Source of the DNA: Candidatus Altimarinota bacterium
GTDB taxonomy: Bacteria; Patescibacteriota; Gracilibacteria; BD1-5; UBA2023
Direction of reading: 5' to 3'
Length of the DNA stretch: 42,408 bases
NCBI GenBank assembly: GCA_024709505.1
Contig: JANJWP010000019.1
Coordinates: 1-42,408, forward strand
In this document: in pieces, positions 1,506 to 40,800 of the stretch
Position numbering within the stretch: position 1 is the first letter of the stretch
Layout: every line of letters begins with the position of its first letter
Position numbers and translations under genes: made by a program
The notes under the pieces: model-generated
Seen by the model: only the letters and a program-made list of their open reading frames with translations
What the model was told of the DNA's origin: nothing
The model's database searches: none

Positions 1506-1670
1506 AGCGTCGCGTCGGGAAAATCCGATGTTTCCGCTTACTCCAGTCCTCGGATACGGAAGCCTGACGAGGTCGCAGCGACTTTAACTTCAGTTAGGAG
1601 CCAGACACGTCAGGCTTCCGTATCCTGCGGAGTCGTTCGCTTGAAACATCGGATTTTCCCGACGCGCGCT
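1506..1670 (+). repeat. Nested palindromic element, copy 1 (between def and the mutase gene)
   Basis: Outer arms 1511-1534 and 1643-1666 form a perfect 24-bp inverted repeat, extended outward by AGCG/CGCT with one bulge. Inner arms 1552-1569 and 1608-1625 form a perfect 18-bp repeat starting GGATACGGAAG. Between the two arm pairs ACTCC/GGAGT can also pair. The apical loop (1570-1607) carries GCGACTTTAACTTC followed by AGTTAGGAGC. This core recurs at 19020-19050 (26 of 31 positions by hand alignment) and more loosely at 15533-15558. The element begins at the def stop codon and fills the gap between two minus-strand genes. It has no U-run, so it is not a simple terminator. Confidence 0.85.
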
Positions 1671-13959: not shown

Positions 13960-15393
13960 TTACCTTCGATCAGCAAGGTCAATGAATTCGAGAACCGGGA
14001 TTTCCTTTCCGTCGCGGATGAGGTCGGTCACGGCCACGATCCTTCCGGAATCGGAAATTTTTCCGCATTCGCGAAGCTTTACGAGCGCCGCCTCAAGATT
14101 CGCCTCATGGTTGTCCGACCATTCGGGAAGACATACCGGCTCCATGCCGAAGAGCGCGTTCATGTATCGAACGGTCGTTTCCTTTCCGGTAAACGCGAAA
14201 ACGGCGGCGTTCGGACGGTAAGCGGCCGCAAGCCGAGCAAGCCGCCCCGTTTTCGTAAAAATGAGAACGGCCTCGACGTCGAGGTCTTCGGCGGAATAGA
14301 TGGCGTTTTTGATGAGGATTTTCTTCTCCCGATCGCGCTTCGAAAGTCCGGCGTCGGAGTATTCCTTATGCTCGGAAACGAAGTGGCTTTCCGCGGATTC
14401 GATAACGCTTTTCATCATCGCGACGGACTGGAGCGGATATTTTCCGGTTGTCGTTTCGCCCGAGAGCATCGTTGCGTCCGCACGTTGGGCGACCGCATTG
14501 AAAATATCGGAAACTTCGGCGCGGGTGGGGAAGGGGTTTTCGATCATCGTTTCGAGCAGGTGGGTCGCGACGATGGAAAATTTTCCCATCTCCCGAGCCA
14601 TTCGGACGATTTCTTTTTGGAGGAGCGGAAGCGTTTGGATGGGGACCTCGATTCATAAATCGCCGCGGGCGACCATGACCCCGTCCGAAACTTCGAGAAT
14701 TTCGCGGAGATTGTCCACCCCTTCGCGATTTTCGATTTTCGCGATGATTTTCACGTGTTCCGCTCCGTTTTCCCGAAGGAGCGTCCGAAGTTCTTCGACG
14801 TTTTCCTTCGTTCGGACGAAGCTCATCGCCACGAAATCCATTCCTTCGGAAATTCCGAAAAGGAGGTCTTCCCGGTCTTTCTCGGTTACTCCGGGAAGCC
14901 GGATTTTCGTATCGGGGAGATTGACGTGGCGACGGCTTCCGACCGTCGCGTCGTTTTCGGCCCGAACGGTAAGCGAACCGGCGTTTTTGGCAATGACCTT
15001 CACGTCGAGAAGTCCCGAATCGATGCGGATGGTTTCTCCCACGTTCAGATCTTCGAGAAGATGGGGATAATCGCAAAAGAGTCCCTGGAGATCGGCATCC
15101 GCCGCCTTTTGTTCGACGTATATCCGAAATTCGTCGTTCTTGGAATACCGCCGTTTCTCGGCGACGTCGCCGGTTCGGATTTCGGGTCCTTTGGTATCAA
15201 GGAGGGTCGAAAGGTTCGTTCGCCCCGAGGCGTTGAGTTCGCGCACGCGCTCCATAATGGCGTGGACACCCTCGTGTTTGGCGTGGGAAAAATTGAATCG
15301 GAGAACGTTCACTCCGCCATCGAAGAGCGCAGCGAGGTTTTCGGAAGATTCCGTAGCTGGGCCGACGGTGGCGATGATTTTGGTCTTTTTCAT
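13960..15393 (-). CDS. pyk: Pyruvate kinase
   Basis: Converts phosphoenolpyruvate and ADP to pyruvate and ATP, the last ATP-yielding step of lower glycolysis. The 477-residue protein starts [17 protein letters not shown] and shows [22 protein letters not shown], the metal/active-site region [13 protein letters not shown] and VMVARGDL, then ATHLLETM and [10 protein letters not shown]. The single in-frame TGA (14653-14655, residue 247) falls in ARGDL-Gly-IEVP, where glycine is essentially invariant; this is among the best proofs of the code. ATG at 15429 is in frame but overlaps the preceding gene's end, so I prefer 15393. It is last in the minus-strand run from nusA. Confidence 0.95.
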
Positions 15394-15413: not shown

Positions 15414-16853
15414 TTATTTTCTTCTCCATTCCTTCGGGAAGGAATTGGTGATTTTTCCGTTTTTTATACGCTCAAGCCCGAGGAACCGGTCTCGATAGAC
15501 GATTTGCGCGAGATTCGCGTGATTCGACGGAGCCGCGACGACTTTTTCCCCATTAGGAATGGGGCCCGTCGAATCACGCGAATCCGCAACCAATTCCGTC
15601 TCGAACCCCGACAAATACCGGTGGAGTTCCTTTTCGTCGCGCAATAGGAGTTTCGCGACGTTTCTCAAATCGCGGTTCTTGCCGAGTGACCAATTGGCTT
15701 CGAATTTTCCTTCTTCCAGGCGACCGATGCGTTCGCCGAATTTGAGAAAATAGCAGGCGTCGGCAAGTTCTGGCACTCCGTTGACTTTGCGGACGGCAAT
15801 CACGTCGTTGCGATATCGATAAAAATGGTGGGTTTTTTCTCCGAAGTCCGGAGTCCCGAGATTTTCGAGCGCTTCGCGGATCCGGTCGGCATCCCGATCG
15901 GAGATTTTCGAAAGCCCGTCGTTTTTTGAGCGGCGGAAGATTTTTTCGTTTTCTGGCAAGGGAGCGGCTTTCTTGATTTTAGCAACGAAAAAACCGCCCG
16001 CACCTTCCGCGTGGGGCCAGAATTTTTTTTGGAAAACGGTTTCGAACGTTCCGGGAAAAGCGGACGCCACGTTTTCGAGCACGCCTTCATTTTCGAAACG
16101 GTTGAGCGTACAGGTCGAATAGAGCATTTCCCCACCCGTTTTGAGTGCCGAAAGCCCGGCGACGAAGAGCTTTTCCTGAAGGCGGGCAATCGTTTTTACG
16201 TTTTTTACGTTCCAGTATTTGAGCGATTCCTCAGCCTTGAACCCAATGCCTTCGCCCGAACAGGGCGCGTCCAAAAGCACGCGGTCGAACGTTTCCGGAA
16301 GCGCTCCGAAAAGAACGCCGTTCATATTCGTGATTCCCGTTCGGTCCGACGTTCCCATGCGTTCGACGTTTTCTATGAGCGAGGAAATCCGCTCCTTGGC
16401 GAATTCGTTGGCCACGACGAACGAATTCGGAAAATGTTCGAGCAACTGGGTGGTTTTTCCCCCTGGCGAAGATGCCATGTCGAGCATGAGGAACGAGTCT
16501 CCCCACTTTCGGTACGGCCCCGTTCCGCCTTCGGCCAAATGCCAGACGCTCATCGAGGCCGAGAGTTCTTGAACGTAGAAATCCCCCAGAAGATGCTCGA
16601 GCGTGCTTCAAAGCGCGGTGGCGGTGTCTTCGCGGTCCACCCGGAATGCCAGGGCGTTTTCGGTGGGCGAGAGCGTCCATCCTTCCGCCGATCTTTTGTT
16701 TTTGAATTCCGTCGGATTGACGCGCTCCGAATTTATCCGGAGCGTTTTTTTAAGGGGACGGAGCAGGGATTTTTGAAACGCTTCGAATTCTTCGGGTTTT
16801 CCTTGGAAGAATTCGGTTTCAAAGTATTCGAGAAACGCTCTGGAAATGGACAT
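15414..16853 (-). CDS. RsmB/RsmF-family rRNA cytosine-C5 methyltransferase
   Basis: SAM-dependent enzyme making 5-methylcytosine in rRNA. The 479-residue protein has an N-terminal RNA-binding part, LGSTLEHLLGDFYVQELSA (its Gly82 is a TGA, 16608-16610), the SAM loop LDMASSPGGKTTQL (about 124-137), DAPCSGEG with Cys198, and STCTL with the second catalytic Cys248. The C-terminal part ending NGKITNSFPKEWRR resembles the PUA-like tail of RsmF. Residues about 424-448 are encoded by a nested palindrome (15512-15584) related to two intergenic elements here, suggesting a repeat inserted in frame into a tolerant region. The modified rRNA position cannot be told. It lies between smpB and pyk on the same strand. 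Confidence 0.9.
15512..15584 (+). repeat. Nested palindromic element inside a reading frame, copy 3
   Basis: Arms 15512-15530 and 15566-15584 form a perfect 19-bp inverted repeat (GATTCGCGTGATTCGACGG and complement). Inside is a second hairpin, CCCCATT-AGG-AATGGGG (15548-15564). The sequence between holds CGCGACGACTTT and then CATTAGGA, aligning with the core of copies 1 and 2 (19 of 30 positions by hand, one gap). It lies within the C-terminal coding part of the RsmB/F gene without breaking its frame. Confidence 0.7.
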
Positions 16854-18986: not shown

Positions 18987-19094
18987 GAGATTGCTCTTCG
19001 GGTGTGAAAGCCGTTAGAACCGCGGCGACTTTAACTTCGGTGAGGAGCAAGGTCCAAGGTTTTCACAACCGAAGGATCATTATTCGGCAATCTC
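18987..19094 (+). repeat. Nested palindromic element, copy 2 (between nusA and rplI)
   Basis: Outer arms GAGATTGC (18987-18994) and GCAATCTC (19087-19094) pair; the right one overlaps the last nusA codons. The inner stem 18996-19012 with 19058-19074 is 17 bp with one mismatch and one GU-type pair. The loop carries GCGACTTTAACTTC then GGTGAGGAGC (core 19020-19050), nearly identical to copy 1 although the stems are unrelated in sequence. It has the same orientation relative to the flanking genes as copy 1. Confidence 0.8.
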
Positions 19095-27331: not shown

Positions 27332-27509
27332 CGGACTCCCGCGTCTTCCGGACGGACGATTTTTGAGATTCGTCCATTAAGACGAATCGGGACCTCGGGA
27401 ATCCGTTCGTCTCAGCCCTTCGTGAAATCGACGAAGCGGATTCCCGAGGTCCCGCCTGCGCACTTGGCACGAATCGATGATGAGTCCGTCCGGAAGACGC
27501 GGGAGTCCG
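27332..27509 (+). repeat. Large nested palindrome in the rsmE leader (divergent copy 4)
   Basis: Outer arms 27332-27357 and 27484-27509 are a perfect 26-bp inverted repeat. Inner arms 27388-27405 and 27437-27454 are a perfect 18-bp repeat. Small hairpins GATTCGTC/GACGAATC (27367-27388) and CTTCGT/ACGAAG (27418-27436) add branches. Outer and inner arm lengths match copy 1. The apical segment reads GTGAAATCGACG, weakly like the complement of the shared core (GTTAAAGTCGCTG). With the promoter this is the only content of the 300-nt gap between rnr and rsmE. Confidence 0.75.
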
Positions 27510-37763: not shown

Positions 37764-37782
37764 CATGGGGCATTTCCCATGC
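37763..37782 (+). other. Intercistronic hairpin between adaptor and permease
   Basis: GCATGGG, loop GCATTT, CCCATGC, directly after the adaptor stop. Without a T-run it is not a terminator; it may protect or process the mRNA. Confidence 0.5.
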
Positions 37783-37817
37783 GACTTCGAAATCTCTCCG
37801 CCCCTTAGAACCTTCTC

Positions 37818-40800
37818 ATGACGAAAACGCCTGCCATTCCCGAAAACGTCGCCAAAATCCGTAAGGAACTCGAGTCCGGTTTTTTGGGATTTTGGGTCAA
37901 GAAATACCGGATATCCTACATCATCGTCGCGGCCGTCTTTTTTTTGGGGACGGTCTCGCTCCTTTCGATCCCCAAAGAATCGAGCCCTTCCATCGAGTTT
38001 TGAATGGTCTCGATCACGACTTCCTATCCCGGAACAAATCCGGTGGACATGGACTCCCTCGTAACCGACAAGCTGTACAAAGAAATCAAGGACATCGACG
38101 GAATTAAGAAGATCACCTCTTCTTCTTCCCTCGGAATTTCTTCCATCGTCATCGAACTCGAACCGGGAGCGGAAACCCCCGACGTCATGGCCGAAGTCCG
38201 GAACAATATCGGTCGGGCCGCGCTCCCCGCCGATGCCAAAAACCCAACCGTTACCGAAATCAAAACCGACACGAACCGGATGTTCACCGTTACGCTTTAC
38301 AGCGAGGACGAGGACAAAGTCGGTACTGACAAGCTTCGAAAACTCGCCAAAGAACTCGAAGAAAAGATCGAAAAGGTTTCCGGAATCGAGAGCGTCGATT
38401 TTGAAGGAACCAGCGCGTACGAGCTTCGGATCGTCGTCTCCGAAGAAACCCTCCGTTCGCTCGCTTTGACTGCCGACGACGTCGCGAGCGCCATCCGAAG
38501 CGTCCATCGCGACGCTCCAATAGGAAATTTCGAAGTCGGAAATAAGAACTACGACTTCCGCATCGAAGGAAAATATTCCCAAGGATGGGAATTTCTCGAC
38601 ACCCCCATTCCCCTCGCTTCGGGGAAATACGTCCGTCTTGCCGACATTGCGAAGCTCGAGCGTTCTTACAAGGACGAATCCGTGAAGGAGATCGGGTTTT
38701 TTTCCGATCCGGGCCCCCATGCGTCCGTGGAGCTCAACGTCAATAAAAACGACGGGACGAGCATTTTCGCCGTTTCCAGGTCAGCAAAATCGGCCATTGC
38801 GGAAATCTTGGAAAATCCCGAATACGCGGGCGTTTTCTATCGGTTTTCGAGCGATCTCGCCGATAACATCATCGACGATTATCGGGAACTCCTCCGCGAG
38901 GCGGCCATCACGATAACCCTCGTGTTCGTCATCATGTACCTTTTCGTCGGGTTTAAGGATTCGCTTTTCGCGACGCTGACGCTACCGCTCGCTTTCCTTT
39001 CGACTTTCACGCTCCTCCATTTCTTTGGGTACACCCTCAATTTTCTCACGAATTTTTCGTTCATCCTTTCGTTCGGCATCGCGGTTGACACCATCATCGT
39101 CATCGTTCAGGCGGCCAGCATGAAGCAGCGTGTCGGATACGATCCGAAAACCGCCATTCTCCTCGCGCTCAAAGAATACGCCGTTCCGATTACCGCGGGA
39201 GTCATGACGACCATCGTGGCATTCATTCCGATGATGACGCTCCCGGGAATCATGGGAAAATTCCTCGCGTTCATTCCGGTGACGATTTTCGGGGTCCTCG
39301 CGACCGGACTCATCTTGGCCCTTACCGTTAACAGCGCCCTATACCTCGCTTTCGTGGGGCGCAAAACCGCCTTCGTCAAAGACTCGCACGCCCTCGAATA
39401 CGCGAGCGACGAAGAGCGCGAACTTCTCGAATTCGAACGTCGGGGGAAAACCGAAATTGCCGAGTGAGCCGCCCCGTTACGCCTCCGCATCATCCACTCC
39501 GTGACTTCGTGGTATAAAAAAACGCTCCTGTGGTTTTTGGAAAATGCCAAAGTCCGAAGGATTTCGATTTTGCTCCCGATCCTCTTTTTCGTTTTCTGAT
39601 CGGTTTTCCTCGCGCCGAAAGTCGGATTCGACCTTTTTCCGGCCTCTGACAATTCGCTCATCACCTACAGCGTCGAAGGCGCGATTGGCGAAACGACGGC
39701 CTCGTTCCATGCCCGTCTCGAACCCGCATACGACCTCCTTTCGAAGTACGAGGAAATCAAGTTTTTCAGTATCTCGACGAAGGACAATTCCGCCACCATA
39801 ACGGTTCAATTGCAGAAACTGCACGAACGGAAATCCGCCGGACTCCGATCGGTTTTTGAAGTGGAAGAGGATTTGACCCGGTCGCTCGAACCCCTCCGTC
39901 GCCTCTGACTCCAAGTGGAATCAAAGGTTCTCGAATGAGGTCCTCCAGGTGGAAAAGCCGTAGGATTGAAGCTGAACGCCGATTCTTCGGACGGACTCGA
40001 ATCGCTCGTCGCGGTTTCCGAAGATTTTGAAAAATTCCTTCGGTCCCTCGACGGAACGAAAAACGTTTCGACGACTTCCGGAGAAACGCCCGGACAATTC
40101 GTTTTCGTCTTGAAGAAAGACGTTCTCGCAGAATTCGGCATTCCGGCATCGAGGATCTATTCCGAAATTCTTTCGACCGTAAACGGAGCCAACGTCGGTT
40201 CGATCGAAGATGGCGGCGAGGATGTTGACGTAGTCGTGAAAATCGCCGAATTTTCCGATTCGCTCGATCCCCAATCCGTTCTCGCCCGCAGCTTCGCGCA
40301 TGCCGGAAAAACCTATCGGATCGGTGATTTCGCGGTTTCCACCGTCAAAAACGCCGTGGCTTCCGTCAAGCGCGAAGAAGGGAAAATTACCATTACCGTA
40401 GAAGGCGACGTCGAAAAAGACGTTTTGCCGGCAACCGTGCAATCAAAGTACGAAGCCTTTGCCAAAACCTACCCGTTCCCGTCCGGAATATCCTTTTCGA
40501 AGGGGGGAGAAAACGAAGAAAACAAAGAGCTCATCGTCGCGATCCTCGTATCGTTCGTCGTCGCGCTTGTATGTATTTTTGGAATTCTCGTTCTCCAGTT
40601 CAACAGTTACGGACAGCCGTTCATCATCATCTTTTCGGTCGTCATGGCGTTGCCGTTCATCATGATCGGACTCCTTTTGACCGACAATCCTTTTTCGATG
40701 CCGTTCGGAATCGGATTCATTTCGTTTACGGGCATTGCCGTCAATCACGGAATCATCCTCATCGACGCCATCAACCAGAACCTCAAAAAGGGCATGAAGG

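Follow-up and report, generated by a model that had tools for sequence, protein, structure and literature searches.

In-frame palindromic repeats are, to our knowledge, known from few lineages only, namely Rickettsia, Wolbachia and Methanocaldococcus. Short dispersed hairpins that are probably mobile are also found in mitochondria of fungi, as the double-hairpin elements. The Rickettsia palindromic elements (RPEs) are ~100-150 bp long, palindromic and genus-restricted, and occur in intergenic DNA as well as in frame in conserved protein genes, where they are tolerated (PMC2229807); their arms lose identity with time, whereas the coding palindromes of nematomorph mitochondria keep theirs (PMC6649704). 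The latter are perfect inverted repeats whose arms, made of native coding sequence, change together, for which template switching has been proposed; a family of repeats sharing a conserved tip is not part of that description (PMC6649704). The mitochondrial RHE hairpins of sponges, likewise short, dispersed and probably mobile, conserve their stems and vary in their loops (PMC2800124). A search of the literature returned no report of in-frame palindromic repeats in Gracilibacteria. Here, we show that a palindrome lying in frame within an rRNA methyltransferase gene of this class belongs to a hairpin element that is specific to one genus and present there in multiple copies.

The window, by which we mean the whole stretch of 42,408 nucleotides that was analysed, comes from a 1.17-Mb, 98% complete genome (G000) of Candidatus Altimarinota bacterium, which is read with code 25 (TGA = glycine) and has a G+C content of ~54% vs ~39% in sampled relatives. 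The pyruvate kinase gene at window positions 13960-15393 carries an internal TGA read as glycine (RGDL-TGA-IEVPIQ), and residue 82 of the neighboring rsmF-like methyltransferase is likewise encoded by TGA. The latter protein matches PF01189 (E=1.3e-33), and its closest NCBIfam model is RsmF, at a score under that model's cut-off. The original prediction, made from the sequence alone, had placed a 19-bp perfect inverted repeat with an inner 7-bp hairpin in the C-terminal coding region of this gene, without disruption of its frame, and both statements hold: the two arms are complementary at 19/19 bases across a spacer of 35 nt, which contains the hairpin CCCCATT/AATGGGG (15548-15554/15558-15564), and the reading frame is open throughout the palindrome, at residues 424-448. 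A chance palindrome was ruled out by 100 dinucleotide shuffles of the window, in which the longest arm reached 14 bp vs 19 bp in the real sequence.

To place the palindrome within the protein, we aligned the rsmF-like sequence with those of 29 relatives, 28 of them from outside the genus. Nearly all of the 28 have 3-5 residues between a 'YLxGxExx' motif and the last beta-like segment, with a few reaching up to ~12-14, and the host protein carries ~25 residues more at this site, as an insertion there had been expected to look. In the sole congener compared (G001, JAUPLX01, a 79% complete Patescibacteria MAG), the element occupies the identical site in the same frame and shows the core CTCCTAACNNNGTTGAAGTCGC, which resembles the reverse complement of the window element at 1511-1666. 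The proteins of the two species are 72% identical overall; their inserts share almost only PNG. This makes it probable that occupation of the site predates the divergence of the two species, or else that the site was hit twice. The congener gene, at a contig end and thus possibly including assembly artefacts, has two tandem tip cores (L078/L079, G001:C75). An AlphaFold run on a two-row alignment gave an unusable model with a mean pLDDT of 34.

Membership of the reported element in a family was established with a covariance model trained on eight copies; as the reported element was among them, the model was rebuilt without it. The resulting leave-one-out model detects the element with E=2.4e-8 when structure is used and 0.0019 by sequence only, and ranks it third of three matches in the window. 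With the full model, 8 copies are found in the host genome and 13 in the congener, and the 97 other relatives drawn from the family, order and class yield none. Furthermore, a core-pattern scan of one genome per species returned repeated matches only in JAUPLX01, and the six remaining matches, each single and in unrelated taxa, are probably chance. The core was present in no viral contig, on which ground a phage origin was rejected, and a search of Rfam gave nothing above the gathering score, with weak matches to unrelated families, mostly microRNA models. Direct palindrome scanning covered a 646-kb sample of the host genome, the remainder being scanned by the covariance model alone, and found seven inverted repeats with arms of >=17 bp and spacers of 15-60 nt, vs none in 351 kb of relatives poorer in G+C than the host. 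Three further loci of the host genome (L026:8364-8435, L018:16491-16562 and L024:16025-16082) are long-spaced perfect inverted repeats whose tips are of neither type described below.

Table 1. Coordinates of the carrier gene, the reported element and its parts, further copies, and an unoccupied site within the window.
Feature	Position	Strand	Basis or remarks
rsmF-like rRNA cytosine methyltransferase gene, carrier of the in-frame element	15414..16853	-	479 aa + stop, code 25, start at 16853
Reported element, covering residues 424-448; type 1 tip on the coding strand	15512..15584	-	Inverted repeat and leave-one-out model
Stem arm, 19 bp	15512..15530	+	Inverted repeat
Stem arm, 19 bp, perfect complement of 15512-15530	15566..15584	+	Inverted repeat
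Conserved tip GCCCCATTCCTAATGGGGAAAAAGTCGTCGCGGCT (- strand)	15531..15565	-	Contains the inner 7-bp hairpin
Intergenic copy after peptide deformylase-like gene, type 1 tip	1511..1666	-	Model and inverted repeats; outer arms 1511-1534/1643-1666, 24 bp; inner arms 1552-1569/1608-1625, 18 bp
Intergenic copy with imperfect stem and type 1 tip, ~9 nt past the stop codon of nusA	19000..19071	-	Leave-one-out model, E=1e-9
Intergenic double palindrome, type 2 tip	27332..27509	+	Outer arms 26 bp; inner arms 27388-27405/27437-27454, 18 bp
Empty site past HlyD/AcrA-like gene, occupied by a copy in the congener (L093)	37764..37833	+	Site comparison

The copies share a common anatomy, in which a stem P1 of ~18 bp and free sequence is followed by a short GGCC-like stem P2 with a one-base bulge, by a conserved asymmetric internal loop (UUGCUCC on one side, AAGUCGCYGC on the other) and by a small, covarying tip helix P3 with the variants UAAC/GUUR, UCAC/GUGA and UAG/CUR. 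Several copies, including that at 1511-1666, extend outward through a second conserved loop, CCGCAG/CGAGGAC, into outer arms of 17-24 bp. At L083:1371-1651, one copy is enclosed by three nested inverted-repeat tiers with arms of 19, 12 and 24 bp. A second type of tip, GCCCTKCGTGANNTCG, is found at window positions 27388-27454 and at loci L018, L032, L006 and L072; at L018:10525-10664 and L032:4634-4775, it lies within the outer loop CAAACAATCCGCA/GAGGACGTTTG, as in the type 1 copy L083. As this outer loop is shared in at least two cases, we regard type 2 as a related type, a weaker link to the type 1 family. As stated in the original prediction, the center of the palindrome resembles the core of an intergenic element, that at 1511-1666, and the leave-one-out test makes the palindrome a significant member of the family; the other intergenic element, at 27332-27509, has a different tip, and the copy past nusA had not been on the list of the original prediction.

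Across the two genomes, 14 of the 21 copies are intergenic, several of them directly past a stop codon, and 7 lie within open frames of genes, where gene calls around the copies were made by codon bias. The open-frame copies occur on either strand and reside in rsmF, tsaD (both species), uvrC, mfd, gnd (contig end) and a gene without a Pfam match that we take to be nucleotidyltransferase-like. That further members of this family are intergenic, or in frame within genes other than rsmF, supports the proposal of an element that, like those of Rickettsia, enters both coding and noncoding DNA. In tsaD, the two species carry the element at the same site in opposite orientations, and the host frame reads a TGA within the tip as glycine. 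The insert is absent from the orthologues of other relatives, mostly with ~5 residues at this position and in a few cases with unrelated longer loops, and sits in a length-variable segment of TsaD that, judged by this comparison, would be a tolerant site. The uvrC site of the host genome holds a palindrome without a recognizable tip. At least one copy of the congener, that after the HlyD/AcrA-like gene, is missing at the matching host site, and the orthologous sites of nusA and mfd were not recovered in the 79% complete congener genome. Between the two species, intergenic sequences have diverged too far to be aligned, so that neither a clean insertion boundary nor a target-site duplication can be read. 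At a contig end of the congener (L102:5-243, G001:C12), gnd sequence on the two sides of an element tip folds back perfectly over 76 bp; this is either a true fold-back copy or an artefact of the assembly or the library.

Identity across copies is 38% in the 5' arms and 77-84% in the loops, yet stem pairs are formed in 94% of cells and 23 of the 25 stem pairs show changes on both sides. The covariation score is 0.81, whereas shuffles give 0.20 and slid structures no more than 0.21; it was obtained on rows aligned to the tested structure, but the strongest copies form perfect inverted repeats irrespective of that alignment. At two sites that match between the species, after the deformylase gene and beside an exonuclease gene, the arms differ and the loops are alike. 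This turnover of stems that stay paired, together with the conserved loops, the occurrence of both orientations and the distribution restricted to the genus, goes beyond what had been proposed from the window.

Covariation and loop conservation of this strength would also be expected of a structured RNA or regulatory hairpin under selection, acting for example in mRNA stability, whose stems are maintained by compensatory selection and whose genic copies are accidental. In line with such a role, 10 of the 14 intergenic copies are oriented along their genes and 4 against, several follow immediately upon a stop codon, and the pairs of the tip helix vary between U-A and U-G. However, a selected RNA should tolerate G-U over A-C, and among 363 stem cells the deviating ones comprise 8 G-U, 12 A-C and 11 others; without a G-U excess, and within the limits of these small numbers, pairing appears to be maintained at the DNA level, this being the single observation that tells drift with correction from compensatory selection. 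The RNA explanation is further at odds with the two orientations seen even in one gene, tsaD, of the two species, with the third of all copies (7/21) that lie in open frames, with the difference in occupancy after the HlyD/AcrA-like gene and with the lack of an Rfam match above the gathering score, and we consider it a serious but unlikely alternative.

Short, palindromic, multi-copy and without a gene of its own, the family also resembles classical REP/RAYT or MITE-type elements that are moved by a genome-encoded transposase. REPs and MITEs, however, conserve their stems or termini and have a transposase partner, whereas conservation is lowest in the stems here and the Y1 transposase domain (PF01797, the only transposase family searched) is absent from both genomes, so that an origin of this kind is quite improbable. 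More improbable by far is the idea that the methyltransferase merely has an old variable extension, within which template switching produced a palindrome with no relation to the intergenic copies: the C-terminal region of rsmF-like proteins does vary among relatives and the stem sequences are not common to other copies, but models built from other copies detect the tip, even by sequence only, and the congener has an unmistakable tip copy at the same rsmF site. An integron attC-like recombination site is a negligible candidate, rejected on the tip variants: many tips read YYYAAC...GTTRRR, with a TAAC...GTT core resembling R boxes, and tyrosine recombinases are present, though their domain is found in every control genome too, but attC sites need GTT and, once folded, end in invariant AAC/GTT boxes, whereas the same helix here reads UCAC/GUGA or UAG/CUA in other copies, with the GTT lost, the boxes lie 3-4 nt apart and no cassette array is seen.

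The best reading, to which we assign a probability of about three in four, is that of a selfish repeat similar to the Rickettsia palindromic elements, whose arms are homogenized by template switching. Such an element would be non-autonomous and, as we infer, is or was mobile and tolerated rather than useful, its copies persisting where they are harmless, that is, beside stop codons or in protein segments that tolerate ~25 extra residues. The tip would be conserved because it is recognized by a factor supplied in trans or by some step of spread, and the stems would drift freely, with template switching across the hairpin during replication (quasipalindrome correction) copying one arm onto the other. 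Template switching is known both to homogenize arms and to invert spacers (PMC8604942); it may also flip the center of the hairpin, which would account for the opposite orientations in tsaD. Both genomes encode one retron-type reverse transcriptase beside a CTP synthase-like gene (L180:1258-2289, G000:C32; L181:664-1797, G001:C33), which we consider a candidate partner; as a genus-specific partner it was rejected, being present in many relatives that lack the family, with no correlation. Upstream of the host reverse transcriptase, L180 contains an inverted-repeat structure (2335-2454) that could be a retron RNA. A bolder proposal, tentative and distinctly unlikely at present, is a separate class of selfish elements that inherits only its hairpin loops and whose self-homogenizing arms might be formed anew, either from local DNA at insertion or through template switching; its spread could involve a structured-RNA or single-stranded DNA intermediate, with the reverse transcriptase as one candidate partner.

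Compared with the described systems, the family shares with the RPEs its genus-restricted, palindromic repeats, their placement between genes and in frame in conserved genes, and inserts that are absent from orthologues (rsmF, tsaD). It differs in that its arms turn over yet stay paired, the loops alone being conserved, in that it inserts in either orientation and in that one frame requires TGA to be read as glycine; nor does the exact core pattern, which was scanned in one genome per species, have a match in Rickettsia. By analogy, the family would work like the RPEs and is probably not a member by descent. The coding palindromes of Nematomorpha are likewise perfect inverted repeats with arms that change together, but in the present family the element is repeated, its tip is conserved and a peptide is inserted. 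The family combines an RPE-type repeat with nematomorph-type arm behavior; the sponge RHE hairpins, similar in their dispersal and probable mobility, show the reverse of its conservation pattern.

With this family, in-frame palindromic repeats extend to a Patescibacterium whose genome is recoded, and to a property that the known in-frame elements are said to lack, namely arms that stay paired during sequence turnover. The family offers a natural test of whether template switching in replication can sustain a selfish hairpin without selection on its stem, and indicates that the recoding of a stop codon can provide additional frames for in-frame insertion.
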